A DNA stretch of 42,292 nucleotides from a virus. Position 1 is the first letter of the stretch, and each line of letters opens with the position of its first letter. Of the stretch, positions 14,225 to 42,292 are shown piece by piece. A program made the translations under genes and the position numbers. The stretch lies in IMG/VR virus record IMGVR_UViG_3300009161_000091, positions 1 through 42,292 of that record. The stretch is one strand, 5' to 3'. The notes below the pieces were generated by a model. It worked only from the letters and a program-made list of their open reading frames with translations. It was not told the origin of the DNA and searched no databases.

Positions 14225-14253
14225 TTGACAAATTAATATTTCCATGGTATAAT
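14225..14253 (+). promoter_or_regulatory. Perfect consensus sigma-70 promoter facing the plus strand
   Basis: TTGACA (14225-14230), 17-base spacer, TATAAT (14248-14253). It reads rightward, against every gene in the window, and would make an RNA antisense to the gene at 14278-15081 from about base 14260. No plus-strand gene is visible downstream. It lies back to back with the late promoter at 14213-14220. Confidence 0.7.
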
Positions 14254-20736: not shown

Positions 20737-20952
20737 TCAGGACTTCATGTAGTCATCCATCTTCTTGATGAAAGTTTTGATTGTCTTATCCCGGTTAGGC
20801 CATACGATGGTATCCTTTTCAGGATTCTTCATCAAGTTATTCAGCAATGGCATAATCATCTTACGCAAGCCTTCTGCCTTGTCAACAGCCTGACTTTTAA
20901 TTTCTTCGGTGTCAGAAAATGTAAAGCCAAAATCGTATTCGTCGTCTTTCAT
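20737..20952 (-). CDS. Conserved small protein after DNA polymerase, 71 aa
   Basis: Starts M-K-D-D-E-Y-D-F-G-F-T-F and contains A-V-D-K-A-E-G-L-R-K-M-I-M-P-L-L and W-P-N-R, a short acidic protein I recall next to gene 43 in many marine T4-like phages. Function unknown. Its ATG overlaps the polymerase stop (ATGA), implying coupled translation. Confidence 0.8.
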   Translation of the reverse strand: MKDDEYDFGFTFSDTEEIKSQAVDKAEGLRKMIMPLLNNLMKNPEKDTIVWPNRDKTIKTFIKKMDDYMKS

Positions 20953-23480
20953 GTGAAGAATGCCTCCAGTGTGGATTGTTTTTCGGTGTGCCAATTAATG
21001 GTGTTAAGAATAGTGCGAAGTGGATCGAGAAATGCCTTATCAAATTGCATATCATAGTCAATATATGCGTTTAATTTAAACTCAGGTGGCAACTGAGAGA
21101 TTACGGCAATCACATTCTCATGGATAGGATTTGGCATCTTCATATAAGCAAAGCGGATCTTTTCACCGTCTTTGATTTGCTCGTATTTTTTCGTAAGCTT
21201 CATCTGTTGCAGCTTCTTATTGAATACGATAGCACCACGCACATGCATGGGAACGCCTTTTGTCTCGTACTGATATTTAGTGAGGTTCTGGACACTGCGA
21301 GGGAATGCAATATCTTCAAATGGTAACTTGCAAAACTCTTTACGGAACTTTTCAATGTACCTATGCAGGTCATCTTCGCTCTGTGTCATAACGATGTTAA
21401 GAACATCTTTAATAGCCGTGCGGCAAGCTGCTGGTGTTGAGGACTTTACAGCTTCCATACCCATGATTTTTAATTTTGGCTTAGCATATCGCACACCTTC
21501 GGAATCATGGACATTGAGAATGTATCGCTTCTTTGCGGTCCAGATGCCACGGTCTGCAATTACTTCGCGCTTCATATTCATTTTTTGCTGGAAGGCACAC
21601 ATACGTTCAGCAAGATCCTGATAGATGCGATCAATAACTGGTTCCATTTTATCACTAGCCACCTTATCAAGAAAGTTAATGATCTTTTCTTTGAGTTCCG
21701 GAGTAAGCCCTTCAGCCTCAATTCTCTTTTCAAAGACGCTATGTACCAATTTATCAAAGCTAATATAAAGCGAATCTGTATCAGACGCAATAACATAATC
21801 ATAATCCTCCGTCTTCAATAATTTGTTGAGATACTTATTCATTTCATTTTCAGCCCAACGAATTGATAGTTGCCCACCAAGAGTGATAGCGGTAGCTTGG
21901 TCAATATCAAAGAAACGGAAATGCTGATTACCGATAGCGCCATATGCGGAGTTCAACTGTACTTTCTTTGCAAGCTGCATATTCTTGTAGCGTGAGATAT
22001 CTTTAACAGCCTGTTTTTTCTCAGCTTCGGTCTTTGCATTCTCGTAGGCCTTTTGAGCAAGGATCATCTTGTCCTTATACACCACACGGTCATTGTACAT
22101 GCGTTGCATAATCGTAGGCAAGAACCCTTGCTTCGCTTTACTAAAGAAACAACCGTTAGCTGCAAGGCCATAACCATCAGGCACTTCTGGCATATTACCA
22201 GCAAGCAGATCATCAATCGTAACGTCTGCTTGGATTGCATAGCCTTTCGCGTTCACATGAATGGTTTCAGGTGAAATGTTATACTGCATAATCAAATGTG
22301 GATACAGACTGTTCAAATCAAAAGACATGACCCATGAGTGCGAACCAACCTGTGGGTCTTTCACATACGCACCAACAAACACTTCGTCCTTGCTACCACC
22401 ACCGTTGAGTGGTACTGCGATTCTCTTCTTCCACAAATGGTTGTGCGTGATAACATCCCACATACGCACCTGCGTGAACACGTCCGCGATGGTAACTTTC
22501 GCGTCATACGCGAGCGCGAGGGCCATATCAATTAGTTTCATCTTATCGTCCATCTTCACGATAAGTTCCACGTCGATGATATTGTAGTCAATAAACTTAG
22601 TATGATCTTTCATGTAGAATTCGTGGAGTGTCTCAAATTCAGAATGGTCTAGTTTCTTCTCACCAAGTTCAACGAATGCAATATGGTCAAGACGATATGA
22701 TTCCTGCTGAGAGTATGTGAATTTCTTATACATCTCAAGATAATCAAGTGTAGCCACACCACCAATATCATATGCAACCTGCACCTTGTTGAATGTCATT
22801 TGAACTCGTCTCTCACGGACATTTTTCCATGGTGAGAGGCGCTTCATTTCACTTTCACCAATGACCGTTGTCATACGTTTGGCAAGATAAGGAATATCAA
22901 ACCATGTGATATTCCAACCAGTGACGATATCGGGATAACCATCGTGCGCCCACTCACTCAGAAAACGAATGAGCAATTCTTTTTCGTTGACACAGTGATG
23001 GTAGAAAACGTCATTGCGTGTTGATGTGTATGGCTTTAAACCAAACACATGAAAGATCGGGCCTTTCTTCAACGTGATGGCTGTGACGGTATCCGATGCT
23101 CGCTCTACCGCAGGAAAACCATTCTCAGAACTTACTTCGATATCAAGATATGCGACCTTGATTTGGTCACGATCATATGGCACATCGGTTGGATATTCTT
23201 CATTCAGGTATGTGTAGACGAACCGCTGTAGACCAAAGATATTGAAATTGGTTACGTCTTCATATTGCTTGAGAAAGTCCTTAGCTTCATTGATGGATTC
23301 AAATTGGATTGGCTCAAGCGAAAGCCCACGAATGTCGGTCCAGCTTGCATTCTCATGCTTTGACTGGACAAACATCGTGGGCTTGTAGGGAATCTTTTCG
23401 TTGAACTGTAGCCCGCGGTCGTAACCGCGAACCAAGATGTTGTTGCCGAACTGCATCGCATTGGTGTAAAATTTGCTCAT
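20949..23480 (-). CDS. 43: DNA polymerase, T4 gp43-like (family B)
   Basis: Phage replicase with 3'-5' proofreading. Exo I is D113-I-E115; exo II and III regions follow (T-G-W-N-I-T-W-F-D; Y-N-I-I-D-V-E). Polymerase motif A is S-F-D388-L-N-S-L-Y-P, motif B K-K-V-Q-L-N-S-A-Y-G, motif C S-D567-T-D-S. The length (843) is near T4 gp43 (898). A promoter at 23486-23514 ends so close that the start site falls on the ATG, and a 15-bp palindrome lies directly before the ATG. Confidence 0.96.
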   Translation of the reverse strand: MSKFYTNAMQFGNNILVRGYDRGLQFNEKIPYKPTMFVQSKHENASWTDIRGLSLEPIQFESINEAKDFLKQYEDVTNFNIFGLQRFVYTYLNEEYPTDVPYDRDQIKVAYLDIEVSSENGFPAVERASDTVTAITLKKGPIFHVFGLKPYTSTRNDVFYHHCVNEKELLIRFLSEWAHDGYPDIVTGWNITWFDIPYLAKRMTTVIGESEMKRLSPWKNVRERRVQMTFNKVQVAYDIGGVATLDYLEMYKKFTYSQQESYRLDHIAFVELGEKKLDHSEFETLHEFYMKDHTKFIDYNIIDVELIVKMDDKMKLIDMALALAYDAKVTIADVFTQVRMWDVITHNHLWKKRIAVPLNGGGSKDEVFVGAYVKDPQVGSHSWVMSFDLNSLYPHLIMQYNISPETIHVNAKGYAIQADVTIDDLLAGNMPEVPDGYGLAANGCFFSKAKQGFLPTIMQRMYNDRVVYKDKMILAQKAYENAKTEAEKKQAVKDISRYKNMQLAKKVQLNSAYGAIGNQHFRFFDIDQATAITLGGQLSIRWAENEMNKYLNKLLKTEDYDYVIASDTDSLYISFDKLVHSVFEKRIEAEGLTPELKEKIINFLDKVASDKMEPVIDRIYQDLAERMCAFQQKMNMKREVIADRGIWTAKKRYILNVHDSEGVRYAKPKLKIMGMEAVKSSTPAACRTAIKDVLNIVMTQSEDDLHRYIEKFRKEFCKLPFEDIAFPRSVQNLTKYQYETKGVPMHVRGAIVFNKKLQQMKLTKKYEQIKDGEKIRFAYMKMPNPIHENVIAVISQLPPEFKLNAYIDYDMQFDKAFLDPLRTILNTINWHTEKQSTLEAFFT

Positions 23481-27866: not shown

Positions 27867-27868
27867 TG

Positions 27869-28426: not shown

Positions 28427-28436
28427 CGTATTTGTC

Positions 28437-29378
28437 CTATGACTTGAACTCACAATCAATCATAATCTGCGTCATACATGCAGCAAGGTTGATTTCTTGG
28501 TCAACAACAAAAGCAGCTTTGTACTGATAGTCCGCAAGAATGAGGATCAACTGCGGTACAGAATTCTGATCTAGGATATCATAAGCGGTATCATACAGAG
28601 AACGGAATAGAGTATTCACGTCCGCGCTAGAGTTAGTGCCAATCCACTTTCGCATGTTCTCAAACTCGCGGTTCTTCAAACACTTGACAAGTTCGCTGAT
28701 ATTGGTATTATCGACCGACGCAAGGATACCAGTGTCAATCTTACCACGCGCAGCATACCTCTGGAACTCATTGAGTACACGCCGCCAATCGGGCAGATGC
28801 TTCTTGATTACCTCTGCGACTGCACCTTTATCATACTCAACATTCTCAGCCTCAAGGATCCAAATGGCTCGCTTCATAAACTCAACAGCAAGACCACCAA
28901 GTTGCTTCTTCTGGATCTTAAAGTCTACAACAGCGCACCGAGAATGTAGTGGTTGGATAATTCGGTTCTTGAAATTGCAGGTGAGAATAAATCCACAGTT
29001 ACTTGAGAACTCCTCCATGAAGTTTCTGAGTGCGGGCTGTGTGGAACTAGCGTTGAGGTAATCCGCCTCATCCAAGATAACATACTTACGACCTCCACCA
29101 AATGATACGGTACCTGCATAGTTGCGAATTTCATTTCGCAGTGTGTCAATGTTACCATTCATTGACCCATTGATAATTAAATAGTCAGCATTGATCTCGT
29201 CAAGCATAGCACGAGCGACCGTTGTCTTACCGACACCAGCAGTGCCAGCAAGCAACAGATTAGGAATGCTGCCGTCGTTTACGAATTGTTGGAATGTTTG
29301 CTTCAGGTCATCAGGTAGAATGCAATCGGCAATCTTATGCGGCCGATACTTTTCTACCCAGAGAAATTCTTCACGCAT
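28437..29378 (-). CDS. 44: Clamp loader large subunit, gp44-like (AAA+)
   Basis: ATPase that opens and places the gp45 clamp. W-V-E-K-Y-R-P at the start, Walker A G-T-A-G-V-G-K-T-T, Walker B Y-V-I-L-D-E-A-D, the S-S-N-C-G-F-I-L-T-C-N sensor 1 strand and L-x-S-R-C arginine finger are all present. Length 313 (T4: 319). GGAG precedes the ATG. Confidence 0.95.
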   Translation of the reverse strand: MREEFLWVEKYRPHKIADCILPDDLKQTFQQFVNDGSIPNLLLAGTAGVGKTTVARAMLDEINADYLIINGSMNGNIDTLRNEIRNYAGTVSFGGGRKYVILDEADYLNASSTQPALRNFMEEFSSNCGFILTCNFKNRIIQPLHSRCAVVDFKIQKKQLGGLAVEFMKRAIWILEAENVEYDKGAVAEVIKKHLPDWRRVLNEFQRYAARGKIDTGILASVDNTNISELVKCLKNREFENMRKWIGTNSSADVNTLFRSLYDTAYDILDQNSVPQLILILADYQYKAAFVVDQEINLAACMTQIMIDCEFKS

Positions 29379-29891: not shown

Positions 29892-30563
29892 TTAGGCATC
29901 AAAAGACGAACCAGATTCCGTTGCGACCCAGTAATGACAGATGCCATCAGTGGATGCAAAGTATGCGATACCCTTTGAAGATACCTTCACATCATAGTCC
30001 TTACCACCCATGACCTTAAGGTTATCAACCTTGAAGATCATCTTATAACTCTTCTCAGCCTTGCCTACAGGGCTCTTGAAACGATTCGTGGAATCGCTGC
30101 GCGAATCAATAGCGCAGAAGTATGCGTTACCATGTTCACCAACAAGAGCAATTTCTGGCAGAACGAGAAGCGAAGCTTGACGCAATGCTCTTTGAAGCTT
30201 CGCTGCTTCCAGAACAAAAGCTACATCGACCGAAGGTAGAGTAACTTCCTTGGTAGGAAGACTGGGAAGAAGCTCTGCCTTTGCACGAACGATATCTGAG
30301 ATATCGCCAGTTCCATTTGTGATGGAGATGAACGTGTTATTGACAGAGATATCGGGATTTTCGTAGTCACTCAAAACATTAATGAACTGAGACAAATCGA
30401 AGACACCAAATTCAGTGTCGATTGTATCTTCGATCTTTACCTTTGCGAAGACGGTCTTTTGTGGTGAGACCGTCTTCAATTCTGAGCCAGCAGAAAACAA
30501 CATGCTGGGATTGATTGTCGCAAAATTCTTTAGTACGTCGATTGTGGTCTTAGAGATTTTCAT
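29892..30563 (-). CDS. 45: Sliding clamp, gp45-like
   Basis: Trimeric processivity ring for polymerase and, in T4, activator of late transcription. Start M-K-I-S-K-T-T-I-D-V-L-K-N-F-A-T-I-N is nearly that of T4 gp45; length 223 (T4: 228). AAGGA seven bases before ATG 30563 rejects a GTG five codons upstream. Promoter at 30590-30618, terminator at 29855-29887, so it is strongly and separately expressed. Confidence 0.94.
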   Translation of the reverse strand: MKISKTTIDVLKNFATINPSMLFSAGSELKTVSPQKTVFAKVKIEDTIDTEFGVFDLSQFINVLSDYENPDISVNNTFISITNGTGDISDIVRAKAELLPSLPTKEVTLPSVDVAFVLEAAKLQRALRQASLLVLPEIALVGEHGNAYFCAIDSRSDSTNRFKSPVGKAEKSYKMIFKVDNLKVMGGKDYDVKVSSKGIAYFASTDGICHYWVATESGSSFDA

Positions 30564-30589
30564 GGTATATTCCTTCACTCAAGATAATC

Positions 30590-30618
30590 ATAATAGCAGG
30601 TGTGAATGCGAATGTCAA
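30590..30618 (-). promoter_or_regulatory. Sigma-70 promoter for clamp 45
   Basis: TTGACA (30618-30613), 17-base spacer, TATTAT (30595-30590). The -10 is followed by a leader of about 20 bases with AAGGA. Confidence 0.8.
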
Positions 30619-30619
30619 G

Positions 30620-31477
30620 TTACTTTTTACGAGGAGCTAATTCACCTACGTCAGCGGTAGCACCAGCGCCGATCTGAGCCAGATCAATAAGAGAACCAGC
30701 AAACACATATGAACCCATGTGCTGAAGCTTCATCCATGGGCAAAGCCATGTCTTCACATTGATGTCCCACATCTTCTGGCAGAACCAATAATCTTCTGAT
30801 AGGTACCGCTTAGACTTAGGATCAATCTCAGCCTGGAAGAACTGCATGATTTCGCGGGTACCATCAAAGTGTGCGGTACGCACATGGTCAGGCAGATATG
30901 TGTATTGTGGGTAAGCGGCTGCAAACTTTTCCAACGCAGAACGCTGGATCATCATAAAGCCAGTGCCACCTTCAAGCACCTCTACTGGTTGATCGAGAGC
31001 AATGGATCCAGATCCTTCCTTAGGATTGAAAACATAATCGCCAACATACTTCTCGAGGTTCTCTGGATCCTTGTCAGCGAAGCCACGGTCGACCGCGCGC
31101 TTGATCTTTTCCCAAGCAATACATTTCTTGGGATACGGACCACATACGATTTCCTTATCACTGCCAGCTTCCGCAATGACCGACAATGCAATAACATCAT
31201 TCGGATCAAAACCAATGTCGGCGTCGATGAACATCAAGTGAGTACAATCAGAACGCAGAAATTCGTCCACGAGGTAATTTCGCGCACGAGTAATTAGGGA
31301 TTCATTGAAGAGATAATAGAAGCGAACATCCATGCCATACTGTGCTGCCATGGACGCAAGATCGGCAGTTGACTTTGTATATGTACCACCACACATACCG
31401 CCGTACATAGGTGTGGCTACTAAAATCTTACGCTTGCGTAGTTCTTCAATTGTTACAGAAACTTCTAGTGCGGACAT
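30620..31477 (-). CDS. Glycosyltransferase-like protein (GT-A fold)
   Basis: 285 residues: K-I-L-V-A-T-P-M-Y-G-G at the first strand, D85-A-D87 (metal and sugar-nucleotide site) in L-M-F-I-D-A-D-I-G-F, and a later S-E-D-Y-W-F-C acid/base-like motif. This is a family common in T4-like phages. Acceptor unknown: DNA bases, virion proteins or host surface are possible. GGAG supports the ATG. Confidence 0.75.
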   Translation of the reverse strand: MSALEVSVTIEELRKRKILVATPMYGGMCGGTYTKSTADLASMAAQYGMDVRFYYLFNESLITRARNYLVDEFLRSDCTHLMFIDADIGFDPNDVIALSVIAEAGSDKEIVCGPYPKKCIAWEKIKRAVDRGFADKDPENLEKYVGDYVFNPKEGSGSIALDQPVEVLEGGTGFMMIQRSALEKFAAAYPQYTYLPDHVRTAHFDGTREIMQFFQAEIDPKSKRYLSEDYWFCQKMWDINVKTWLCPWMKLQHMGSYVFAGSLIDLAQIGAGATADVGELAPRKK

Positions 31478-31518
31478 AACGACTCCATGTTAAAAATTGC
31501 AATAATATATATGGAAAT

Positions 31519-31755
31519 TCAAAGCTGTTCAGCAGCTTCCTGCTGCTTCTTTTTCCAACGGCGAATAGCCTGAATTTTATTCAGACGGCGTTGCATGGAA
31601 GGCTTCGTGTAATGTTCGCGCTCAGAAAGGTCTCGCATTATACCATCAGCTTGAATTTTCTTCTTCAGGACGCGCAATGCACCATTGATATCATTGTTCC
31701 GAACTGTAACACTCAGACCACGAAGATGGGCGTAGGGAATTTCATCGTTATTCAA
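31519..31755 (-). CDS. rpsU: Ribosomal protein bS21 homologue, TTG start
   Basis: Residues about 14-70 follow bS21: L-S-V-T-V-R-x-N-D-x-x-x-A-L-R-V-L-K-K-K, R-E-H-Y-T-K-P-S-x-x-R-R and a basic helical tail. bS21 sits near the anti-Shine-Dalgarno end of 16S rRNA and helps mRNA selection. Phage-encoded bS21 is known from several phages. GGAG seven bases before TTG at 31755 makes this the start; no in-frame ATG is near. A strong terminator stands just downstream of the upstream winged-helix gene. Confidence 0.88.
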   Translation of the reverse strand: MNNDEIPYAHLRGLSVTVRNNDINGALRVLKKKIQADGIMRDLSEREHYTKPSMQRRLNKIQAIRRWKKKQQEAAEQL

Positions 31756-31767
31756 TTTTAGACTCCA

Positions 31768-31799
31768 TTAAAAATAGGGTGAGGAATGCTCCCCACCCT
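31768..31799 (-). terminator. Strong rho-independent terminator
   Basis: On the minus strand a 10-bp stem AGGGTGGGGA / TCCTCACCCT (one G-U) with a GCAT loop (31776-31799), followed by ATTTTTA. It closes the winged-helix gene transcript and stands between it and bS21. Confidence 0.85.
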
Positions 31800-31811
31800 A
31801 TATAGCATAAA

Positions 31812-32018
31812 TTAGGCAGCGATGCGATAGTAAAGCTTGCGCTCGCCATTTACCTTGCGGTAGTTGCTGTAGATTGTGTGCGCTTCGCGAAGGTCACTAA
31901 CACGCTTATAGATACCTTCCTTAGAAATGCCAGTGAGCTTAGAAAGCTTAGCGACAGTGACACCAGGACCGGTGTTGTTACGACGAAGGTGCTTTTCAAT
32001 CAAGGACAACTGTGACAT
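31812..32018 (-). CDS. Small winged-helix protein, 68 aa
   Basis: Helix-turn-helix pattern V-A-K-L-S-K-L-T-G-I-S-K-E-G-I-Y-K-R-V-S-D-L-R followed by a wing (I-Y-S-N ... R-K-L-Y-Y-R), as in a short winged-helix family of T4-like phages. Likely a DNA-binding transcription regulator; targets unknown. GGAG six bases before ATG 32018 decides the start. It follows the CobS-like ATPase gene in the same transcript. Confidence 0.75.
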   Translation of the reverse strand: MSQLSLIEKHLRRNNTGPGVTVAKLSKLTGISKEGIYKRVSDLREAHTIYSNYRKVNGERKLYYRIAA

Positions 32019-32049
32019 ATATTTCTCCATAATTTAGGTTATATTAATC

Positions 32050-33252
32050 TCAGAAAGAAATTTCCTGAGACTTCTCCGAGGCAGCATCAACTGCCGGAGT
32101 GGCGGGGATGGGATTGATCGTAGGATCAACCTTGCTATAGAGATCAAGGAACGCGGTCTTGGTCTCTTCATCGAAACGGTTAATGCAGAACTTGATGGCC
32201 TTCATGCGGTCACCGAGCATCAGGAACGTCTGTGCGATATGCACCAGACGGCGAGTGGAAATGAGTTCATCAATGGCACCATCAGCAAAGGTCTTGCGGA
32301 TGATTTCAGACCAGACGGTCAGATGGTCGATGAACGAAACATCAGCCTCGGGCAAATCTTTGCCAAGATAGTTGACGAGGATCTTCTTTTCGATCTGGAC
32401 AGTAGGATATTCCTGCTCGACCGTGATCGGGAAACGCTCAAGCCAAGCATCGTCAAGCATGGTCGCAGCAACATAACGCCCATCCTCAGAGCCACGGCCC
32501 TTGGTGTTTGCAGTGACCATGATATTAAAGCCATCGGCTGGCTTTACAATCTCACCAGTCTTCTTCACATAGTAAGACTTGCCCTCGAGGATACCCTGGA
32601 GGCACATAGCCTTGCCAGGATCAGCACGGTCGGCCTCGTCAATCAGAAGCAAAGCACCGATTTCCATCGCACGAAGTACCGGGCCTTTCATGAACTTGGT
32701 CTCGCCATTGATAAGACGGAAACCACCGATCAGATCGTCCTCGTCGGTCTCACGCGACATCTGCACACGGATCATGGCTCGTTTGGCTTTGCTGCAAGCC
32801 TGCTCAACCATGAAAGTCTTGCCGTTGCCAGAATGCCCAGAAATAAACACAGGGAAAAACTTGCCAGACGCAATGATTTTTTCGATCATCTTGAACTCGC
32901 CAAAAGGCACATAGTTCTTGTCCTTCTCGGGCACCGCAGCATAATCATGCTCCGACACGGCGTTAGGATCGAACTTGGTAGTGGTAACCACTGGCTGAGC
33001 CTTGCGAATGGGAACGATATCGGCCGCCATAGCAGCAATGGACGTAGTATCAACACTAGCAGCGCCAGAGACGGCAGGCAGCTTGTACTTGCCATGGCTA
33101 GCACGATACTCGTCTTTAAAAATCCAACGATAAGAACCCCGCTTGAAATTGCTTGCCAAAGCAAAATCGCAAAGCTCAGAACGAGCTACCACTGCGTCAG
33201 TACCGAACTTGCTGATGGCTTTCTCAAGGAACTTGGACTGATTGGTATTCAT
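32050..33252 (-). CDS. cobS: CobS-like/MoxR-type AAA+ ATPase
   Basis: 400 residues: N-terminal region, then the AAA+ core with Walker A G-H-S-G-N-G-K-T (139-146), Walker B L-L-L-I-D-E-A-D (201-208), G-x-F-x-x-I-N-G and R-L-V-H sensor parts. CobS is the ATPase of aerobic cobaltochelatase (with CobN and CobT), and phages of this superfamily often carry such a gene. Its partner, a VWA protein, is encoded 300 bases upstream. Own promoter at 33284-33313 and GAGGG site. Whether it serves B12 synthesis or another MoxR-type remodelling job is open. Confidence 0.85.
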   Translation of the reverse strand: MNTNQSKFLEKAISKFGTDAVVARSELCDFALASNFKRGSYRWIFKDEYRASHGKYKLPAVSGAASVDTTSIAAMAADIVPIRKAQPVVTTTKFDPNAVSEHDYAAVPEKDKNYVPFGEFKMIEKIIASGKFFPVFISGHSGNGKTFMVEQACSKAKRAMIRVQMSRETDEDDLIGGFRLINGETKFMKGPVLRAMEIGALLLIDEADRADPGKAMCLQGILEGKSYYVKKTGEIVKPADGFNIMVTANTKGRGSEDGRYVAATMLDDAWLERFPITVEQEYPTVQIEKKILVNYLGKDLPEADVSFIDHLTVWSEIIRKTFADGAIDELISTRRLVHIAQTFLMLGDRMKAIKFCINRFDEETKTAFLDLYSKVDPTINPIPATPAVDAASEKSQEISF

Positions 33253-33283
33253 TTCATCGCCCTCTTTTCATCATCATATAAGT

Positions 33284-33313
33284 ATTATAGCACGGATTAG
33301 GTCGGATTGTCAA
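33284..33313 (-). promoter_or_regulatory. Sigma-70 promoter for the CobS-like gene
   Basis: TTGACA (33313-33308), 18-base spacer, TATAAT (33289-33284). Confidence 0.75.
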
Positions 33314-33316
33314 TGG

Positions 33317-33469
33317 TCAAAGCCGCTCGATGGTGGGTTTACCAACAAGTCCAGTAGAAGCCAACAAACGACGCATGAAATCGAAAGCATCCTGTAGGTA
33401 ACGAAACTTGGCCGTCTCGTCCGACAGAAGCTTGTTTTCATCCTTGAGAGTATATGATACTTTAAACAT
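33317..33469 (-). CDS. Small orphan protein, 50 aa
   Basis: No family recognised; a mixed-charge, probably helical protein with F-R-Y-L-Q-D-A-F-D-F-M-R-R-L in the middle. Evidence for coding is its own consensus promoter (33498-33526), AGGAG six bases before ATG 33469 (an earlier in-frame ATG touches the AGGAG), and a fit between two larger genes. It lies between the CobS-like and CobT-like genes. Confidence 0.65.
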   Translation of the reverse strand: MFKVSYTLKDENKLLSDETAKFRYLQDAFDFMRRLLASTGLVGKPTIERL

Positions 33470-33497
33470 AGCCATCTCCTTTTGTCATCATGTTACC

Positions 33498-33526
33498 ATT
33501 GTAGTTGGTAATGAGGGATTTGTCAA
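33498..33526 (-). promoter_or_regulatory. Sigma-70 promoter for the 50-aa gene
   Basis: TTGACA (33526-33521), 17-base spacer, TACAAT (33503-33498). The -35 box sits in the loop of a perfect inverted repeat (ATGAGGG 33511-33517 / CCCTCAT 33528-33534). Confidence 0.75.
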
Positions 33527-33547
33527 CCCCTCATTTTTGCTTTGTAT

Positions 33548-35845
33548 TTATACGGCGATCTTGTCGATAAACTTAGCCAACACAACACGGGACGTACCGC
33601 GCTTGGATTGTGCGTTGGCAAACGCGGTTTTCAGTTTACCCTTCGAAGAATCCGCAGCAATATCACCCATGCCAGAACTCTCGGTACGCAAGTCTTTGCC
33701 GCCCTTGATATAATAGAACTCATTGTGACCATACAAGCCAGGCACAATTGCGTACTGATTAGAACGGAAAGACTTAGCCATCAGGTCAGCATCATACCAG
33801 TTTGACCCAGCCATCTGGGCGCCGCTGGTAACGTCACGGGCACTGTTGGTAATGTAGAAGCCAACAAGATTGACCTTCATCGTGTCACGGATGAGTTTAG
33901 CATACATTGAGGTATATTGATGGTTATGCTCAAAATTCAAACGAATTTGGCGCCTGCTATGCTCGTCGGTCAGGAACGAGGTGCGGTTATTGTGGATGAT
34001 ACTAGAACCAGCCAAATTACCACGTTGCCCATTCTGCTTGTGCAGAATATATGATGGATGATCGGACTCGCCGTCAGTGATAGTTACCATGTTCACAATC
34101 TCGAGGTTCTTCTCCTTCGTGAACTTGGTAATGATATCGCGACCAAGCATCAAGGAATCATTGAACGGGGTCGATCCAAGGCTGAGGAACTCAAACGGGT
34201 CACGGAATTTATTGAAGATAACATCACGGACATAATGCTTCACATTATTATAGCCAGCAGGAACCAGATCGCATGTGGTATAGTTCTGGATCATACCTGA
34301 AATAAGCAATGTGGAACACATGAAATTAAAATCACGCAGGTTCATGCCCTCGTGAAACAATTCCAGCAGTGACAGTTCCGTGTTAGGGTATACGAAATGC
34401 TTGTCAACACGATTGTCAATGTTACGCCATTCCGTATTGATTTTAGACCGCATATCGTGGTATTTCAGAGTAGCAGGATGATTGTAACCTGCACCAGCCA
34501 GGCTGGTCGAGAAACCATAGATACGGTGTGGGATGTTAGCACGGCGACAAAAAGTAGCCAGGGTAATCATCTGTTCAACCGCACCGCGGATATGACCAGA
34601 CATGGAACCAGATAGGTCGAGATAGACGACAAGCCCGTGGTTCTTGCCGGTCGGCAGTACCGTGAGACGACGGAAGATATCCTCGCTGAACTTATAGCTA
34701 TGGATCTTTGTCGTATCAATGGTACCAGTCTTGGATTGCTTGCTACGGGAATAGGCCGTAGCAGCCTTCTTCATTTCAAACTCCTTGACCATATAATTGA
34801 TGGCATTGTTATTGTCGCTGCGGAACTTGGAGAACACACGATTGGCAAAAGCTTGATAATCGGCCACCTTGCCGAGGTTGATATCATGCTGAGCATACTT
34901 CAGGATATCGCCATACTTCACAATGAAGTTATCCGAATTGATATCCTTCGGCAGCACCACATAACGGAGTTCCCTGCCGAGCATAGTAGGATCAACCAAA
35001 TCCTGCATCTTATCAGACAGAGCCTTATCAGTGGTAGCCTCTTCTATCTGACCACCAGACTTACGGCGCGAGGGCTTCGGTTTGTCCTCATCATTACCAT
35101 CGCCGACTTCATCTTGATCGGACTCGCCTTTTAACCCTTCATCGCCATCTTCACCATCTTCCCAATCGTCACCTTCCTCGCCGTCATCATCATCAAGGGT
35201 GCGGGTAGAAACGTCACGCTTTTCTTCATCCAGGTCTTCCTCTTCCTGCTCCGCCTTTTCTTTGGCAAAAGCAAGGAGATCATTAGCAAGCTGGACGGCC
35301 TCATCCCATGTGTGGATGTCCTCAGCCCGCTTTACAAACACCTGTTCTTCATCCGAGAACGGCACCTGCATATGAGAACCAACCTTGAAGTAAAGGTTGA
35401 TACGGTCAATGGTTGACAGTTCATCGGGATTGGTAGACTTCACATTGAAAAAGTCCGACTCAAAAAGCCACTTGTAGCCATCGTGAAAATCACGGCGCGA
35501 GCCGGGGAACTTAGCCTTAATCTTACGCTCAATCCGCGCGTCCTCAACAACATTCAAATAGCCTTGGAATGTGCGCGACACACGGCGGCCGTCTGATTCC
35601 TCAACGGCGTCAATAGCACCTTTCCAGCCATCGCACGGAGTTTCCAGTGCATGACCGACCTCGTGAAGCACCAGCAGATGGTACAAGCTTTCGGTCATTT
35701 CCTGCCACATAGGCAGACGTAGGACGCGGTTCTTAACATCAAAAGACGCGGTGACCACGGGTGCATGTTCCACAGCAATGTTCTCAGCCGCAAGCAGTTT
35801 AGCCAACTTGTCAAGCGCGCCAGGCGATACCAGTTTCTCAGCCAT
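33548..35845 (-). CDS. cobT: CobT-like protein: zinc-metalloprotease motif plus VWA domain
   Basis: 765 residues. The N-terminal part has H61-E-V-G-H65 and a downstream V-V-E-D-A-R-I-E, the zinc-ligand set of a gluzincin-like peptidase. Residues 196-256 are an acidic low-complexity linker. The C-terminal half is a VWA domain with MIDAS D410-L-S-G-S414. VWA proteins pair with MoxR/CobS ATPases, here encoded next in line. Linked acidic and VWA parts resemble CobT of cobaltochelatase. Own promoter at 35870-35898 and GGAG site. Confidence 0.85.
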   Translation of the reverse strand: MAEKLVSPGALDKLAKLLAAENIAVEHAPVVTASFDVKNRVLRLPMWQEMTESLYHLLVLHEVGHALETPCDGWKGAIDAVEESDGRRVSRTFQGYLNVVEDARIERKIKAKFPGSRRDFHDGYKWLFESDFFNVKSTNPDELSTIDRINLYFKVGSHMQVPFSDEEQVFVKRAEDIHTWDEAVQLANDLLAFAKEKAEQEEEDLDEEKRDVSTRTLDDDDGEEGDDWEDGEDGDEGLKGESDQDEVGDGNDEDKPKPSRRKSGGQIEEATTDKALSDKMQDLVDPTMLGRELRYVVLPKDINSDNFIVKYGDILKYAQHDINLGKVADYQAFANRVFSKFRSDNNNAINYMVKEFEMKKAATAYSRSKQSKTGTIDTTKIHSYKFSEDIFRRLTVLPTGKNHGLVVYLDLSGSMSGHIRGAVEQMITLATFCRRANIPHRIYGFSTSLAGAGYNHPATLKYHDMRSKINTEWRNIDNRVDKHFVYPNTELSLLELFHEGMNLRDFNFMCSTLLISGMIQNYTTCDLVPAGYNNVKHYVRDVIFNKFRDPFEFLSLGSTPFNDSLMLGRDIITKFTKEKNLEIVNMVTITDGESDHPSYILHKQNGQRGNLAGSSIIHNNRTSFLTDEHSRRQIRLNFEHNHQYTSMYAKLIRDTMKVNLVGFYITNSARDVTSGAQMAGSNWYDADLMAKSFRSNQYAIVPGLYGHNEFYYIKGGKDLRTESSGMGDIAADSSKGKLKTAFANAQSKRGTSRVVLAKFIDKIAV

Positions 35846-35869
35846 TACCTTCTCCTCAATTCATTATGT

Positions 35870-35898
35870 ATAGTACCACATGGCGCGCGGTTTGTCAA
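35870..35898 (-). promoter_or_regulatory. Sigma-70 promoter for the CobT-like gene
   Basis: TTGACA (35898-35893), 17-base spacer, TACTAT (35875-35870). Shares GTACTATACA with the polymerase promoter. Confidence 0.75.
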
Positions 35899-36096
35899 CT
35901 AGCAATCTCGGTCATAATCTTGCCATTCTTGCATCTCGGATGGCTGACCATCATCCTCATAATCATCGCCTTCGTTAATCGCGTCAATTTGCATGACACA
36001 TTCCAGCATTTCATGCCAATATTCTTCGGCGTCAACATCACCGGTCATTTCAGCCATGCGGATCTGATCCATTATTTCGGCGTAAGAAAAGTCCAT
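35899..36096 (-). CDS. Small acidic protein, 65 aa
   Basis: Very rich in Asp, Glu and Met, with Y-W-H-E-M-L and a D-D-Y-E-D-D cluster; no family recognised. GGAG seven bases before ATG 36096 sets the start. Last gene of the small-gene run; the CobT promoter begins at its stop. Small acidic phage proteins often bind host enzymes, but that is only a guess here. Confidence 0.65.
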   Translation of the reverse strand: MDFSYAEIMDQIRMAEMTGDVDAEEYWHEMLECVMQIDAINEGDDYEDDGQPSEMQEWQDYDRDC

Positions 36097-36107
36097 CTCA
36101 ATTCTCC

Positions 36108-36287
36108 TCAGTCGGAAGCCCAATCGTCCAGTTTGTAGTTCCAATAGTCGGCGTAGTTCTTGGCTTCCTCAGCCACTTTCTCCACAGCCCACGCCTTAGA
36201 CTTGAAACCCTGCCCATCTTTAGCGGCTTCGAGTTGCTTGATGAGAGCATCAATACCCTCGTTCATTTTGTGTTCCAACTGGGTCAT
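36108..36287 (-). CDS. Small orphan protein, 59 aa
   Basis: Helical, with K-A-W-A-V-E-K-V-A-E-E-A-K-N-Y-A-D-Y-W-N-Y; no family recognised. The frame stays open 78 codons further upstream but with non-phage-like composition; GAGGAG before ATG 36287 marks the real start. Same transcript as its neighbours. Confidence 0.65.
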   Translation of the reverse strand: MTQLEHKMNEGIDALIKQLEAAKDGQGFKSKAWAVEKVAEEAKNYADYWNYKLDDWASD

Positions 36288-36297
36288 AGGATTCTCC

Positions 36298-36570
36298 TCA
36301 GAGGTAAACACGGCGGGTGTTGTCGGTGTCGGCAAACTGGTTGGTAACGCCACGCTCGGGCCGAATGCCGGGCTGCACACCTTCAAAGCCAATCTGCTCG
36401 GCATCAAGGTAGTTATAGCCACGGTAGGCGTCGTCGGTGAGAAGTGAAGACTCCAAGAGAACGATAACACCGACCCGCTCATCCCGCGTGGACGAGGGCG
36501 AAGCCAACAGACGGTTAGCAATCTCGGTGAGGGTAGAAGCGCGGACGGTCTTGCGAAGGACTTTTCTCAT
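36298..36570 (-). CDS. Small orphan protein, 90 aa
   Basis: Basic N-terminus (M-R-K-V-L-R-K-T-V-R), acidic C-terminal half with many Asp, no recognised family. AAAGG eight bases before ATG 36570 fixes the start 11 codons inside the open frame. Lies in the GC-richer small-gene run. Confidence 0.6.
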   Translation of the reverse strand: MRKVLRKTVRASTLTEIANRLLASPSSTRDERVGVIVLLESSLLTDDAYRGYNYLDAEQIGFEGVQPGIRPERGVTNQFADTDNTRRVYL

Positions 36571-36584
36571 GGTGTAAACCTTTC

Positions 36585-36932
36585 TCAGATGATGCCGGTC
36601 CATTGGACGGTGGGGTAATCGCGGAGCACTACATTGCCGCGAGCATGATTCCTAGCGGGAGCCTTCCAGCTTGCGGCCTTCAGGATATCGCCCTTGCAGA
36701 ATTTGCCCATATCGTTCATGCAAATGAAGGAGTGGACAGAGGCGTTGGGTGTGCCGGCGTATTTGACGACCTTCACATAACGGCTACCAATCTCGTAGGT
36801 CAGGGTACGGTTGAATTCATCAACCATCTCAGCGGTCCAAGGAGAGTTGGCATGTTCGCCGCGGAACTTGAAAGCGGCATAATCAGCGCGGATAGCGGCA
36901 AGGTAGAGGTCGAGCTTGCGAATGGAGAACAT
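36585..36932 (-). CDS. Small orphan protein, 115 aa
   Basis: Compact, mixed alpha/beta composition with K-V-V-K-Y-A-G-T-P-N-A-S-V-H-S-F and an M-G-K-F-C-K-G-D-I-L-K motif; no family recognised. AAAGG seven bases before ATG 36932 defines the start. Same transcript as the flanking small genes. Confidence 0.65.
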   Translation of the reverse strand: MFSIRKLDLYLAAIRADYAAFKFRGEHANSPWTAEMVDEFNRTLTYEIGSRYVKVVKYAGTPNASVHSFICMNDMGKFCKGDILKAASWKAPARNHARGNVVLRDYPTVQWTGII

Positions 36933-36947
36933 GGTTGAACCTTTCAA

Positions 36948-37154
36948 TTAGCGAGAAGCAAAGCCGGCATTGCGGAGGGTGGTCAATTTGCGGCCTTGCG
37001 AGGCAATGGAAGCAAAGTGGCGAAACGTCTTGACCTTAGCAGTAGAAGTCTCGCAACGGGTCACATAGCCGCCGTTCTGCATGAACTGAGCAATAGCATC
37101 TTGGGTTGCTTCGCGAAGGGCTTGACGGCGGTTGGGGTTTGTTGCTACGCTCAT
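36948..37154 (-). CDS. Small basic orphan protein, 68 aa
   Basis: First gene after promoter 37192-37220. Basic (many Arg), with Q-A-L-R-E-A-T-Q-D-A-I-A-Q-F-M-Q-N-G-G and a T-L-R-N-A-G-F end; no family recognised. A TTG seven codons upstream is in frame but ATG 37154 is the likelier start, although its ribosome site is weak. Confidence 0.6.
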   Translation of the reverse strand: MSVATNPNRRQALREATQDAIAQFMQNGGYVTRCETSTAKVKTFRHFASIASQGRKLTTLRNAGFASR

Positions 37155-37191
37155 GGTGTGTCTCTCGTCTTTCAATTCATCTTATATTCTT

Positions 37192-37220
37192 ATAATAGCA
37201 AAGAACCACCTCATTGTCAA
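37192..37220 (-). promoter_or_regulatory. Sigma-70 promoter for the small-gene run
   Basis: TTGACA (37220-37215), 17-base spacer, TATTAT (37197-37192). It lies just downstream of the terminator of the CmoA-like gene, so it starts a separate unit. Confidence 0.8.
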
Positions 37221-37224
37221 GGCT

Positions 37225-37275
37225 AGAAAAACAAGCAAAAACAATGGCTTAGGGATCATCTCCGCTAAGCCATTG
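37225..37275 (-). terminator. Strong terminator after the CmoA-like gene
   Basis: An 11-bp perfect stem, CAATGGCTTAG (37242-37252) / CTAAGCCATTG (37265-37275), with a 12-base loop; on the minus strand it is followed by TTTTTGCTTGTTTTT. It insulates the modification genes from the small-gene run. Confidence 0.85.
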
Positions 37276-37340
37276 AAATTGTTTGCCAATTATTTTCAGG
37301 TATTTTGGTGTTTTTTCAATTATTTTTGAAACATTTTATG

Positions 37341-38033
37341 TTACTTTTGTGTCGTTCCCTTCAACGCAATGAACCCTGTAAAGGCGTGGTTCTGCCAGAA
37401 GGTGTCAACCGCTTGAAAGCCGGCGTCTAGACAGACCTTGATTAGCTCGCCACGGGTGTTTGGTTTGGTCATATGACGGAGCTGATGCTCCTTGTCCATG
37501 ATATCGTCGGTGGTAAACGTGCGGCGCTTGTAATCATAATAGGTAAAGGTGCGAATTTCATGGATTCGTACATTCTCAGGCATCGTCTTCTCCGCGAAGA
37601 CAAAAGCACCACCAGGGTTCAATCCATTGAATACGCGACTGATTAGATGCATACGATCATGGTACGGCATGAACTGAAGTGTGAAGATGGACGTGACATA
37701 TGAACAGTTGTCGAAATAATACCCATTAGCATCACCCTTGTGATATGTGAGGTTGTCGAAATCCTTTTCGTCCTGATCGTATGGTCCCCAAAACTCAGGT
37801 TCAATCTCTAGACCTGTATAAATTGCGTTAGGTGCAAACGTGTTCTGGTTAATCATACTCTTTAACATCTTACCTGTCGAGCAACCAATATCGACCACGC
37901 TGGTATCATTCTCAACAAAGTACTGGGAGATATCCACAACGTCTTGCCACAGATCACTGTAGCCGCGAATGGATGTGTCGATGTGCGTATCAAAGCCTTC
38001 TTCGCGTGTCGCGAACGTGAACTGACCTGTCAT
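37341..38033 (-). CDS. CmoA-like enzyme (carboxy-S-adenosyl-methionine synthase family)
   Basis: CmoA turns SAM plus prephenate into carboxy-SAM. Shared with E. coli CmoA (by hand, from memory): G-Y25-S near the start, V-D-I-G50-C-S52 (SAM site, E. coli G64-C-S66), G-D101 (E. coli D117), F-T-L-Q-F (117-121), G-L-N-P-G-G-A (137-143), E-K, and the Y-K-R before the last helices. The length fits (230 vs 247). Two E. coli contacts, N132 and R199, align with I116 and E182, though R186 is near. The gene overlaps the DNA C5-methyltransferase by ATGA. Plausible carboxy-SAM supplier; a plain methyltransferase is the alternative. Confidence 0.8.
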   Translation of the reverse strand: MTGQFTFATREEGFDTHIDTSIRGYSDLWQDVVDISQYFVENDTSVVDIGCSTGKMLKSMINQNTFAPNAIYTGLEIEPEFWGPYDQDEKDFDNLTYHKGDANGYYFDNCSYVTSIFTLQFMPYHDRMHLISRVFNGLNPGGAFVFAEKTMPENVRIHEIRTFTYYDYKRRTFTTDDIMDKEHQLRHMTKPNTRGELIKVCLDAGFQAVDTFWQNHAFTGFIALKGTTQK

Positions 38034-39325
38034 TGTGTAGCTTCCTTATAGGGTTTCAATATTTTATTGTAGATGTTAGACGCAAGCGCACCCATCATTT
38101 TAGGAGCAACCATGCGCCCGATTCGTTCTGCTTGCTTATCAAAGTTTCCAGACAATATGTAGTCTTCTGGAAGACTCATGATTCGTTTCAACTCTTTGAT
38201 GGTAAACTTTCTATTCTCTGCGTAATGAAACACACCAGACACAGAAAGCTGTTGCCCTCTCTGCGTTAGAGTAGGGCATGGAAGTTCTGGGCAAGGGCGA
38301 ATCATATTGAAACATGAACCTGTAGGATTCCATGACCGATACTCAGTATCGCTCGGCTTGGTATGACGCTTGGGATTAAATGGAAGCTTCGTGATCCAAT
38401 CTTTTTGAAAGCCACCCATCACATAATCCTTAAGCATCTGGATTTCTTCAGGATCATTTTCGATATCTTCAATTGCTTCGCGCAATGAGATGTGTTGACT
38501 ATTCTCGCTTAGACGACGCCCACCAGAACGAATGATAGGAGTTGTTTCGGGTGGCTTTGTCATTGTCTCGGCATTCATCCAGTTCATACCGATCACACTA
38601 GCAACATCACTACGCACACAGACAAAGAACAGTCTCTCACGCGCTTGCGGAACTCCATAATTTGCGGCGCTCAAAACGTGATGCGTGACAACATAACCAG
38701 GTTCAATGTTTTCAAATGCGTTCTGAAACTCTACAAGCTTCTTGCGCGCTTCGCCCATTGTGATACCCTTGACGTTTTCTGCAACGATAACCTTAGGCTT
38801 GATATCTTTTGCGATGCGAACGAACTCTAGGAATAAATCTTCAATAGCTTCAACAACCATACCATCACTATAAGTTTTGATGCCTGTTTTCGTAAACGTC
38901 TCACCCTCGACGAATTCTAGCTCACCATATTCGTCAATCTCAAACGAGCTATCGGTTTTCTTTATAGCACCCTTCCATTGCTTCTCTCGTTTACCAGCAA
39001 CAGAGAACGCGGAGCAAGGAGGTGACCCATCGAAGATATCAAGTTCACCAGGCTTGAGATTTGCTTCACGAAGAAAATCAAGCCCAGTAAGCTTTTTGAT
39101 ATCGCCTGGGATAATCTTGGTATCTGGAAAATTTGTTGAATATGTTTTTATGGCTTCTTCTACAAATTCATTCATGGCAATAACTTTACCGCCGGCGATG
39201 CGATAGCCAGTTGATGAACCACCACCACCAGCAAAAGTGGATACGACGGTGAATAGCTCTCGGGCTGAAGACTTTTTGATATCGTCAACTGTGTATGGAA
39301 TATATTTTGTCAATGTTTTGTCCAA
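38030..39325 (-). CDS. DNA cytosine-C5 methyltransferase with Arg in motif X; candidate carboxymethyltransferase
   Basis: Motif I F31-A-G-G-G-G, catalytic P-P-C104 in D-G-S-P-P-C-S-A-F-S, motif VI E183-N-V, motif VIII Q227-A-R-E-R231 and motif X I-G-R404-M-V-A-P. Motif X normally reads G-N-x-V; here Asn is Arg (codon at 38114-38116). Target recognition probably lies at about 235-360. The reaction adds a C1 unit, or with carboxy-SAM a carboxymethyl group, to C5 of cytosine. Start is TTG at 39325; the first in-frame ATG would remove motif I. Its promoter (39340-39368) leaves a leader of about 8 bases. Confidence 0.88.
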   Translation of the reverse strand: MDKTLTKYIPYTVDDIKKSSARELFTVVSTFAGGGGSSTGYRIAGGKVIAMNEFVEEAIKTYSTNFPDTKIIPGDIKKLTGLDFLREANLKPGELDIFDGSPPCSAFSVAGKREKQWKGAIKKTDSSFEIDEYGELEFVEGETFTKTGIKTYSDGMVVEAIEDLFLEFVRIAKDIKPKVIVAENVKGITMGEARKKLVEFQNAFENIEPGYVVTHHVLSAANYGVPQARERLFFVCVRSDVASVIGMNWMNAETMTKPPETTPIIRSGGRRLSENSQHISLREAIEDIENDPEEIQMLKDYVMGGFQKDWITKLPFNPKRHTKPSDTEYRSWNPTGSCFNMIRPCPELPCPTLTQRGQQLSVSGVFHYAENRKFTIKELKRIMSLPEDYILSGNFDKQAERIGRMVAPKMMGALASNIYNKILKPYKEATQ

Positions 39326-39339
39326 TCTCTATTATTTGC

Positions 39340-39368
39340 ATTATAAACAGATTTGAAGAGTTTGTCAA
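39340..39368 (-). promoter_or_regulatory. Sigma-70 promoter for the C5-methyltransferase/CmoA-like unit
   Basis: TTGACA (39368-39363), 17-base spacer, perfect TATAAT (39345-39340). Predicted start near 39333, about 8 bases before the TTG start codon. Confidence 0.8.
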
Positions 39369-39375
39369 GCGTTTT

Positions 39376-39903
39376 CTATGCATGTTTCTTTATTCTATTC
39401 ATTTTCTTTAATTGATTGATAGCTTGTTCCAAATGAAAACGACTAGCCTTACTTTGAAAGGTAATGCCATCGAGATGGTCTAGCTCATGGAGAAATACTC
39501 TGGCTGTGTAGCCCTTGAACATCGTGGTACCAGCAACGCCATCCCAACCAGAGAAACGAACCTCAAACTCTTTGGGGCGCTTCACTTTCATAAACAAACC
39601 AGGGTATGAAATGCAACCCTCTTCATACACAACAGTATCATCATTCATTGTTACGATGCGCGGATTGAAAACAGAAATCACACTATCGGGGTCGGTAAAG
39701 TTGCCAATAACAAATGCGCGTGTCATAATGCCAATCTGACAAGCAGACAAACCTACACCTTTGTTAGCAATCATCTGTTCTTTGAGAAGATAGAAAAGCT
39801 TCTCGGCTGAGAGGATGCTACCATCTTCCATTGTGTAGCCAACATCAAAATTGAATGGCTTACACACTTGCTTCAAACGTGGATCGTTGCCCGGAATAAT
39901 CAT
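39376..39903 (-). CDS. def: Peptide deformylase
   Basis: Removes the formyl group from new proteins. The three metal-site motifs are present: G49-V-G-L-S-A-C-Q, E95-G-C97-I-S and H139-E140-L-D-H143. Length 175 is near bacterial Def (about 169). Phage deformylases are common in marine T4-like phages. The ATG overlaps the gp46 stop (ATGA), so it is read after the 47-46 recombination genes. Confidence 0.93.
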   Translation of the reverse strand: MIIPGNDPRLKQVCKPFNFDVGYTMEDGSILSAEKLFYLLKEQMIANKGVGLSACQIGIMTRAFVIGNFTDPDSVISVFNPRIVTMNDDTVVYEEGCISYPGLFMKVKRPKEFEVRFSGWDGVAGTTMFKGYTARVFLHELDHLDGITFQSKASRFHLEQAINQLKKMNRIKKHA

Positions 39904-41609
39904 GATATCATCCTACTAAAGTTTTTCTGTTTTGTGAATCGGAGTGTGCTTGTGAACTTATCTTGTAGAACATCGCCCTTATGAGAGATGACGAAGATGT
40001 TGGTGTCTTCCACATTATGTATAAGCTTCAGAAACTCGTCACAACCGTTAGCATCAAGCGAGGCATCAAAAACCTCATCGAGGATAAGTAGATTGGTGTT
40101 GACGCTATTCTTCATACGAGCGATGGAACGCCATGTAAACAATAGCGAAAGGTCGATACGCATTTTTTCGCCTTCGCTAAATGAATCGTATGTGAAATCA
40201 TCGCGATGGCGTGACAAAATCTTTTCTTCAAATTGCTCGTTTAGTTCGAACTTGACAAAGAAATCCATAGCAGCAAGGTACTTGTTGACAAGCGTATTGA
40301 TAACGGGCACATATTGCTTGATGATTCGAGACTTGATACCTGAGTCGCGCAGAATTATTCCTGCCAGATCGTGCATTTCTCTCTGTGCAAGTAGATGCTT
40401 TTTGCGTTCCAAGAGATTGCTATATTTCTCTTGTAGGTCTTTGATGATTTCGTCGTGACTGGTAATGACGGTCTCTTTCTCGAGGCCTTCAATTTCTTTT
40501 TGCCAGATAGAGATTTCTTTTTGGCTTGTGCGAACATCGGCTTGGATGCTATTGAGGCTCGATTGATGTTTATGGATTTGCCGAAGTACTCGCTCAATCG
40601 CTTCTCTACGAGCTTCGCATGTTGCAATTTCTCCAGATAGCTTAGTGAGCGCAGCTTCGATCTCTGCAATTGTTTTTTCTTTTTCATCTATCTTCTCACA
40701 CTTGATTGCTTGGTCGATATCCTGTGTGCATGTTGGGCACTCATTGTTATCGTGGTAGAATGCGATTGACTTCTTTGCGTTAGTCTTCTTTAGTGTCAAG
40801 CTTTTCTCTAACGCGAGGAGCTTGCGTTGCCTCTCAATCACAGAATCGTGGTCATCTGTAGACTCGGTTAGCTGTGCGATAGTTTCTTGCTCTTCCTGTG
40901 CATTGACCATCGCACTATCAATAGCTTGTTCCAGCTCAGCAATGCGCTCACGGCGCTCTTGGATTTTTTCACCCTTATGATCCTCTTGCTGCTTGCGAAG
41001 CTTTTCTTGGACAAGAACGGAATCGGATGTGGATGTCATATCGCGTTCGTTTAGATTGTAGTTCTCACGCGCACCCGTGACGCGATCCTTCAATAGCAAG
41101 GCCATTGACGAGAACACACGGATGTCCAACAGGTCTTCAATGACCTCACGGCGATTGTTAGTTGATAGCTGCATGAATGGTACGAACGATGACGAACCAA
41201 GAATGACAACCTGCGTGAAGGACTTCATTGTCAACCGCAGAATATTCTTCTCAAGCATCTCTTGATAATCACGCGCAGCAGCTTCCTGATCTAGGAGCTT
41301 GCCATTCTCTATGATTTCAAAGATAGCTGGCTTGATACCACGCCGAATTAGATATTGCTTATCACCAATAGTAAACTCAACTTCAACGATAACATCTCGG
41401 CCATTGACCGAGTTGACTAGCTGATCCTTTTTGATCTTACGAAATGGCTTACCATACAATGAAAAGCACAATGCATCCAACACAGTAGATTTACCAGCAC
41501 CATTCTCACCAACAATGAGCGTTGATGGATTGGCATCTAGTGAAATCTCTGTGAAGGCGTTGCCAGTGGATAGAAAATTCTTCCAACGAACGGATGTAAA
41601 ATGTATCAT
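39900..41609 (-). CDS. 46: Recombination nuclease subunit, gp46-like (Rad50/SbcC family)
   Basis: ATPase subunit of the gp46/47 complex that resects DNA ends for recombination-dependent replication. Walker A G34-E-N-G-A-G-K-S41, long coiled coil (about 185-400) with the zinc hook C291-P-T-C294 at its tip, then S-F-S-E-G-E-K signature and L-L-I-L-D-E-V-F-D Walker B. Length 569 (T4: 560). ATG 41609 overlaps the gp47 stop (TGATG); the codon before it is not an ATG. Confidence 0.95.
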   Translation of the reverse strand: MIHFTSVRWKNFLSTGNAFTEISLDANPSTLIVGENGAGKSTVLDALCFSLYGKPFRKIKKDQLVNSVNGRDVIVEVEFTIGDKQYLIRRGIKPAIFEIIENGKLLDQEAAARDYQEMLEKNILRLTMKSFTQVVILGSSSFVPFMQLSTNNRREVIEDLLDIRVFSSMALLLKDRVTGARENYNLNERDMTSTSDSVLVQEKLRKQQEDHKGEKIQERRERIAELEQAIDSAMVNAQEEQETIAQLTESTDDHDSVIERQRKLLALEKSLTLKKTNAKKSIAFYHDNNECPTCTQDIDQAIKCEKIDEKEKTIAEIEAALTKLSGEIATCEARREAIERVLRQIHKHQSSLNSIQADVRTSQKEISIWQKEIEGLEKETVITSHDEIIKDLQEKYSNLLERKKHLLAQREMHDLAGIILRDSGIKSRIIKQYVPVINTLVNKYLAAMDFFVKFELNEQFEEKILSRHRDDFTYDSFSEGEKMRIDLSLLFTWRSIARMKNSVNTNLLILDEVFDASLDANGCDEFLKLIHNVEDTNIFVISHKGDVLQDKFTSTLRFTKQKNFSRMIS

Positions 41610-42292
41610 CAAACTTCCATTTTCATTGCTTCATTGTATAGAGAATGCATTAGATTGTCAAGCTCTTTTGTGTCAACGCTTGTTTCTAGTGTGCCAATAT
41701 ACTTAGACAAAATCGTAAGGGTATCTTCGGCCTCGTTCAATAGGTCATTCTCGTCAATGGTGTCCATGTTGCGATGGTCTTCAACGATTACCACTTCGAT
41801 AGGATTGGCTTCATAAAGTTTCGTGGTAAACAAATCGAACGCGAAAGGATTATCTTTACCCTGCACGATAAGCTTCACATACGCACCTGCGTATTTTGAA
41901 AAGTCTCTGTCAAGCAAAGCTTCGGTGGTAATGTCTTTGTCATTGTACCACATTTTGCGGAACATCTTGAATGGGTTTTCTATAAACGCCAGTTCACGAG
42001 TTTCCGTATCAAGGATATGGAATCCTTTGGGGTCATCGTAGTCGCTCCAAGTAAACTCAGCATGGCTACCAAGGTAGTGAATGTTCCCAGCAGAAGACCT
42101 GTGATGATAATGACCGCTAAGTACCATGTCGAACCTACCAAACAAACCACGATCATCTCCATGGCTGACTGGACTACCTCGATACATTTCAAAACCTGCA
42201 AGCTCGAGGTGGCCCATGCAGATTTGAGCGTTTGTTGTGCTGATAAGCTGTAGCGTTTCATCGCGGTTATCATCGCAGATCCATGGAATGAA
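41609..42292 (-). CDS. 47: Recombination nuclease subunit, gp47-like (Mre11 family), 5' end missing
   Basis: Catalytic partner of gp46. The reading frame is open to the window edge and matches the C-terminal two thirds of T4 gp47: F-I-P-W-I-C-D-D-N, G-H-L-E-L-A-G-F, and the metal-site motif S-G-H-Y-H-H. The N-terminal D-x-H metal motif lies outside the window. 227 residues are visible. Confidence 0.93.
   Translation of the reverse strand, partial: FIPWICDDNRDETLQLISTTNAQICMGHLELAGFEMYRGSPVSHGDDRGLFGRFDMVLSGHYHHRSSAGNIHYLGSHAEFTWSDYDDPKGFHILDTETRELAFIENPFKMFRKMWYNDKDITTEALLDRDFSKYAGAYVKLIVQGKDNPFAFDLFTTKLYEANPIEVVIVEDHRNMDTIDENDLLNEAEDTLTILSKYIGTLETSVDTKELDNLMHSLYNEAMKMEV

Follow-up and report, generated by a model that had tools for sequence, protein, structure and literature searches.

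A cmoX-cmoA gene pair in a viral genome fragment, with no CmoY ligase gene found in the available sequence

Introduction

A CmoA-CmoX-CmoY system is known from Synechococcus phage S-B43 (Yang et al., Nat Commun, December 2025, PMC12783734): CmoA produces carboxy-SAM (Cx-SAM), CmoX writes 5-carboxymethylcytosine (5cxmC), and the ligase CmoY adds glycine. That work combined enzymology, a crystal structure, and LC-MS of phage DNA, in which 5gcxmC was present and 5cxmC was not, and it reported that ligases typically accompany CmoA-CmoX (PMC12783734). In the S-B43 CmoX (SpCmoX), Arg350 contacts the carboxymethyl group, and the enzyme with this motif X arginine accepts only Cx-SAM (PMC12783734). The engineered methyltransferase M.MpeI N374K, which acts at a CG motif, likewise uses Cx-SAM through a basic residue at the motif X asparagine position (PMC12783734), but there the residue is an introduced lysine, whereas the enzyme described below has a natural arginine.

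Here we describe a pair of genes of a T4-like phage in a viral record of 42,292 nucleotides (IMGVR_UViG_3300009161_000091), the whole of which is hereafter called the window. Judged from its sequence, the pair is a further member of the published phage CmoA-CmoX system rather than a new one. The first-pass annotation had proposed that the cmoA product makes a donor which the adjacent C5-methyltransferase transfers, and knew of no natural system of this kind. The type of CmoA, Arg404 of the methyltransferase, the tight linkage, and the co-occurrence of the two genes all support the proposed roles; the system is no longer new, having already been published for S-B43 (PMC12783734). Raw sequence alone hereby supports this modification system, and places it in a branch of phages far removed from S-B43.

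The cmoX-cmoA locus

The 42-kb record is probably a genome fragment. The neighbors of the pair in the window include genes for a peptide deformylase (pdf), T4-like gp46 and gp47, a peptidase, a CobS-like ATPase, a sliding clamp, and a clamp loader, and the window further encodes RegA, DNA polymerase gp43, UvsX, and helicase gp41. The DNA polymerase is ~51% identical to cyanophage polymerases, and a megablast of positions 30000-42292 against phage records retrieved no near relative. The pair occupies positions 37341-39325 as two minus-strand ORFs of 431 aa (cmoX) and 230 aa (cmoA), with the following features:

39340..39368, minus strand: sigma-70 promoter TTGACA-N17-TATAAT before cmoX, 12/12 consensus match
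38030..39325, minus strand: cmoX, predicted DNA cytosine-C5 carboxymethyltransferase; PF00145, 5e-51; best PDB match 8YF3, 7.6e-103; 46% identity to S-B43 CmoX
37341..38033, minus strand: cmoA, predicted carboxy-SAM synthase; 48.5% identity to SpCmoA and 53.7% to S-CRM01 CmoA; 4gek/4iwn, 1e-19; 4-base overlap with cmoX
37242..37275, minus strand: terminator hairpin behind cmoA; -20.7 kcal/mol, z -5.1, T-rich tail

This layout agrees with the first-pass annotation, which had listed the overlap, the consensus promoter, and a terminator with an 11-bp stem: the two genes share an ATGA, the promoter is exact with a 17-nucleotide spacer, and the hairpin consists of the 11-bp stem plus three inner pairs, followed by T-rich sequence on its 3' side. 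The hairpin is absent from the list of a consensus terminator scan because its loop and bulge exceed the limits of that scan. The cmoX gene of three relatives (G024, G025, and G026) overlaps the pdf gene in front of it, and a separate transcription unit is therefore not general. The true start of cmoX is probably the TTG at 39313 and not the listed TTG at 39325, since translation from this second TTG, four codons on, yields MTKYIPYT..., which aligns in register with the MTYTPYT... of S-CRM01 CmoX.

Exact sigma-70 promoter matches (spacing 16-18) number four in the whole window, against 0.03 expected. The three others lie at 14225-14253 (plus strand), 18998-19026 (minus strand), and 33284-33313 (minus strand), and together the four probably serve as early promoters of the phage.

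CmoA and CmoX sequence features

The cmoA product matches TIGR00740 (E 8.5e-26), scoring below the equivalog cut-off of that NCBIfam model in the run on the window's proteins (91.1 bits vs. 193.3). It is homologous to proven Cx-SAM synthases, with the identity of 48.5% being to the biochemically proven SpCmoA, and it matches the E. coli CmoA structures 4gek and 4iwn along its whole length. E. coli CmoA binds the carboxylate by a salt bridge from Arg199 (PMC3663124). No equivalent of this residue was found in the window CmoA, which has Glu183 there, a glutamate as in the active SpCmoA, and Arg187 four residues on; the partners also differ, being the tRNA enzyme CmoB in E. coli and a DNA enzyme here. 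The later arginine is invariant in this CmoA branch. None of the phage CmoAs gathered has the E. coli Arg199, and nearly all have an arginine one helical turn later, the protein of Moraxella phage Mcat8 being without it. This shifted (+4) arginine is a candidate for the carboxylate contact of phage CmoAs.

The CmoX ORF matches PF00145 and, above the cut-off, TIGR00675 (dcm), and the solved structure that it matches best, 8YF3, is SpCmoX itself. Numbering from the listed TTG, the predicted nucleophile is Cys104 in the SPPC catalytic motif (DGSPPCSAFS). Arg404 within motif X (RIGRMVAP) aligns with Arg350 of SpCmoX (RVGRMVPP), confirming the earlier placement of an arginine at the position of M.MpeI N374. 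Both SPPC and the motif X arginine (GRMV) are invariant in all gathered CmoX relatives that cover them.

In the mechanism we propose, CmoA would convert SAM and host prephenate to Cx-SAM, and CmoX would flip the cytosine out, with Cys104 attacking C6 and the carboxymethyl group passing to C5, while Arg404 would select the Cx-SAM carboxylate over plain SAM. The product would be 5cxmC within some short motif of the phage DNA, where it presumably blocks host restriction. By close homology, we consider it highly likely that both reactions, Cx-SAM synthesis by CmoA and C5-carboxymethyl transfer by CmoX, occur as in S-B43, and the two genes very probably put 5cxmC on the phage DNA.

Compared with that of S-B43, the window CmoX has additional residues following SPPC, and its recognition region is longer and divergent. 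Because identity to SpCmoX in this region is only ~34%, a GC target cannot be assumed and the motif may differ. Two types of cmoX occur within one conserved locus, one in the window, G004, and G027 (72-86% alike) and one in G018, G024, G025, and G026 (88-93% alike); between the types, identity drops to 60-64%. As cmoA has no matching split, and as the distant phage G005 has a window-like cmoX (71%), cmoX alleles may have been exchanged.

Two further arrangements of cmoX were seen. Four contigs (L018, L019, L020, and L021) carry two tandem cmoX genes, ~55% and 44% identical to that of the window, before one cmoA, some of them with cmoY, possibly giving one phage two target motifs. The CmoX homologue of Dickeya phage AD1 (L067, 2902-5031) has an insert of ~350 aa with intein-like ends inside SPPC, directly before the catalytic cysteine.

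Linkage of cmoX and cmoA across phages

Searching with the window CmoX found 25 viral contigs, of which 23 run past the end of the gene (the other two, L017 and L026, end inside it). In 23/23 of these cmoA adjoins cmoX, which is the co-occurrence of the two genes that the first-pass annotation had proposed looking for; many of the 25 are near copies, representing perhaps eight lineages. The linkage is kept in five gene orders (X-A, A-X, X-Y-A, Y-X-A, and A-Y-X).

Both proteins come from large families usually annotated as methyltransferases, and PHROGs and several records label the second a tRNA methyltransferase, so an ordinary 5mC methyltransferase beside a CmoA serving tRNA wobble modification had to be weighed. 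We regard this as very unlikely: Arg404 occupies the position of the Cx-SAM carboxylate contact, SpCmoX with this arginine takes only Cx-SAM (PMC12783734), and the two genes stay together despite changing order. Least probable of the readings weighed here is that CmoA mainly depletes host SAM against SAM-dependent defenses, with DNA modification secondary; the possibility was raised in PMC12783734, but it leaves unexplained a conserved neighbor with the matching arginine. A CmoA that supplies Cx-SAM to CmoX remains the preferred reading of the pair.

Phage isolates having both the motif X arginine and CmoA are S-B43, S-CRM01, RN05-S, TurkishDelight, PaBG, and AD1, joined by Mcat8 with a divergent CmoA-like neighbor. 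At the same place, seven C5-methyltransferases of phages without a detected CmoA have leucine (Melnitz), methionine (Flavobacterium, Cellulophaga, and Bacteroides phages), or asparagine (Thermus, Anabaena, and Fusobacterium phages). Since the published survey demanded the motif X arginine beforehand (PMC12783734), this association in isolates is a partly independent check. The arginine rule is not absolute, as in two Staphylococcus phages the C5-methyltransferase next to CmoA has glycine at this place.

These two are vB-SscS-F1 (L080, 4950-7468), which also has a CmoY homologue (35%), and a Staphylococcus SPbeta-like phage (L069, 4983-6682), both with VVGGVI at motif X. Their enzymes may bind Cx-SAM differently or have another role, and an arginine-based search misses such pairs. 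In Mcat8 (L078, 2387-4094), a CmoX-like gene with the motif X arginine precedes a CmoA-like gene that has diverged strongly (23%, E 2e-10); the annotation lists both products as hypothetical proteins. In Methylophilales phage Melnitz (L065, 3998-6182), the ORF after the CmoX-like methyltransferase with leucine resembles, by eye, a 2OG-Fe(II) dioxygenase, and the polymerase gene has a RimK-like ATP-grasp gene immediately upstream; no CmoA was detected in this phage.

Absence of cmoY

The window shares with S-B43 the similarity of both proteins, SPPC, the motif X arginine, the linkage, and a T4-like neighborhood. In contrast, S-B43 has CmoY and the order A-Y-X, whereas the window has the order X-A. 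CmoY is an AMP-forming amide ligase, and its profile, PF00733, had no match in the 42-kb window. A search with the profile that detected S-B43 CmoY and 16 relatives gave no match either in G001, a 58-kb record near-identical to the window, or in the relative G018, of which 139 kb were covered. A search of the window with the SpCmoY protein also found no similar stretch, which shows little alone. In three syntenic relatives (G004, G024, and G026), cmoY lies 15-18 kb from cmoX, directly behind gp43 and before a small ORF, which in the window is the following feature:

20737..20994, minus strand: small ORF directly after gp43 (synteny map); its homologue is separated from gp43 by cmoY in G004, G024, and G026

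In the window and in G018, gp43 is followed directly by this ORF with nothing between, so that the place of cmoY is sequenced and empty. The Synechococcus phage isolates S-CRM01 and RN05-S likewise have a cmoA-cmoX pair (unlike the window, in the order A-X) and no PF00733 ligase in their complete genomes. RN05-S is otherwise S-B43-like, being 92-97% identical to it around the locus, and its cmoX starts ~25 bases downstream of cmoA, a position taken up by cmoY in S-B43. RN05-S is a clean natural absence of cmoY.

Because CmoY is absent from all available sequence of this phage, including the syntenic place, its mark most likely stays bare 5cxmC, with a ligase elsewhere possible in view of the incomplete genome. 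A less likely but plausible reading is that the same CmoA-CmoX pair serves a hypermodified final base, either through a CmoY-type or other ligase encoded beyond the sequenced part or through an unrelated enzyme acting on the carboxylate; such an enzyme is conceivable in any of the ligase-less phages. Ligases do typically accompany CmoA-CmoX (PMC12783734), relatives do keep cmoY at a distance from cmoX, and the ORF at 20141-20725 (194 aa, weak methyltransferase matches) exemplifies an unrelated candidate for acting on the carboxylate. Against this stand the empty place in the window, the lack of CmoY in G001 and in the 139 kb of G018, and the two complete ligase-less isolates. On balance, we lean modestly toward a ligase-less branch (the window phage, G018, S-CRM01, and RN05-S) that uses bare 5cxmC as its finished DNA base.

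If so, cmoY would be a dispensable module that comes and goes at fixed places, and ligase-less phages would be predicted to contain unconjugated 5cxmC, which was not found in the DNA of S-B43, the one natural DNA examined (PMC12783734). RN05-S and S-B43 have a common host, Synechococcus MW02, and the comparison of the two would be a natural experiment on the role of the glycine cap and on whether a bare base with its negative charge is enough to withstand restriction.

Other candidate modification genes

A replacement hypermodification gene was also sought. In the additional 15 kb that G001 covers, the larger genes encode tail and head proteins and a helicase. The ORF at 20141-20725 lies between gp43 and uvsX, an interval that in G004, G018, and G024 contains a membrane-protein-like ORF of 272 aa; as its only matches in isolates are partial ones in Caulobacter phages, no link to cmoX was established and it was set aside as a replacement.

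Between gp44 and gp62 (26616-28459), the window has an SPPY-motif methyltransferase-like gene and a gene of unknown function. The former was likewise rejected as a replacement: this interval is a cargo slot of varying contents and not part of the system, since other relatives have there ORFs that by eye look GIY-YIG-like, HNH-like, or ParB-like.
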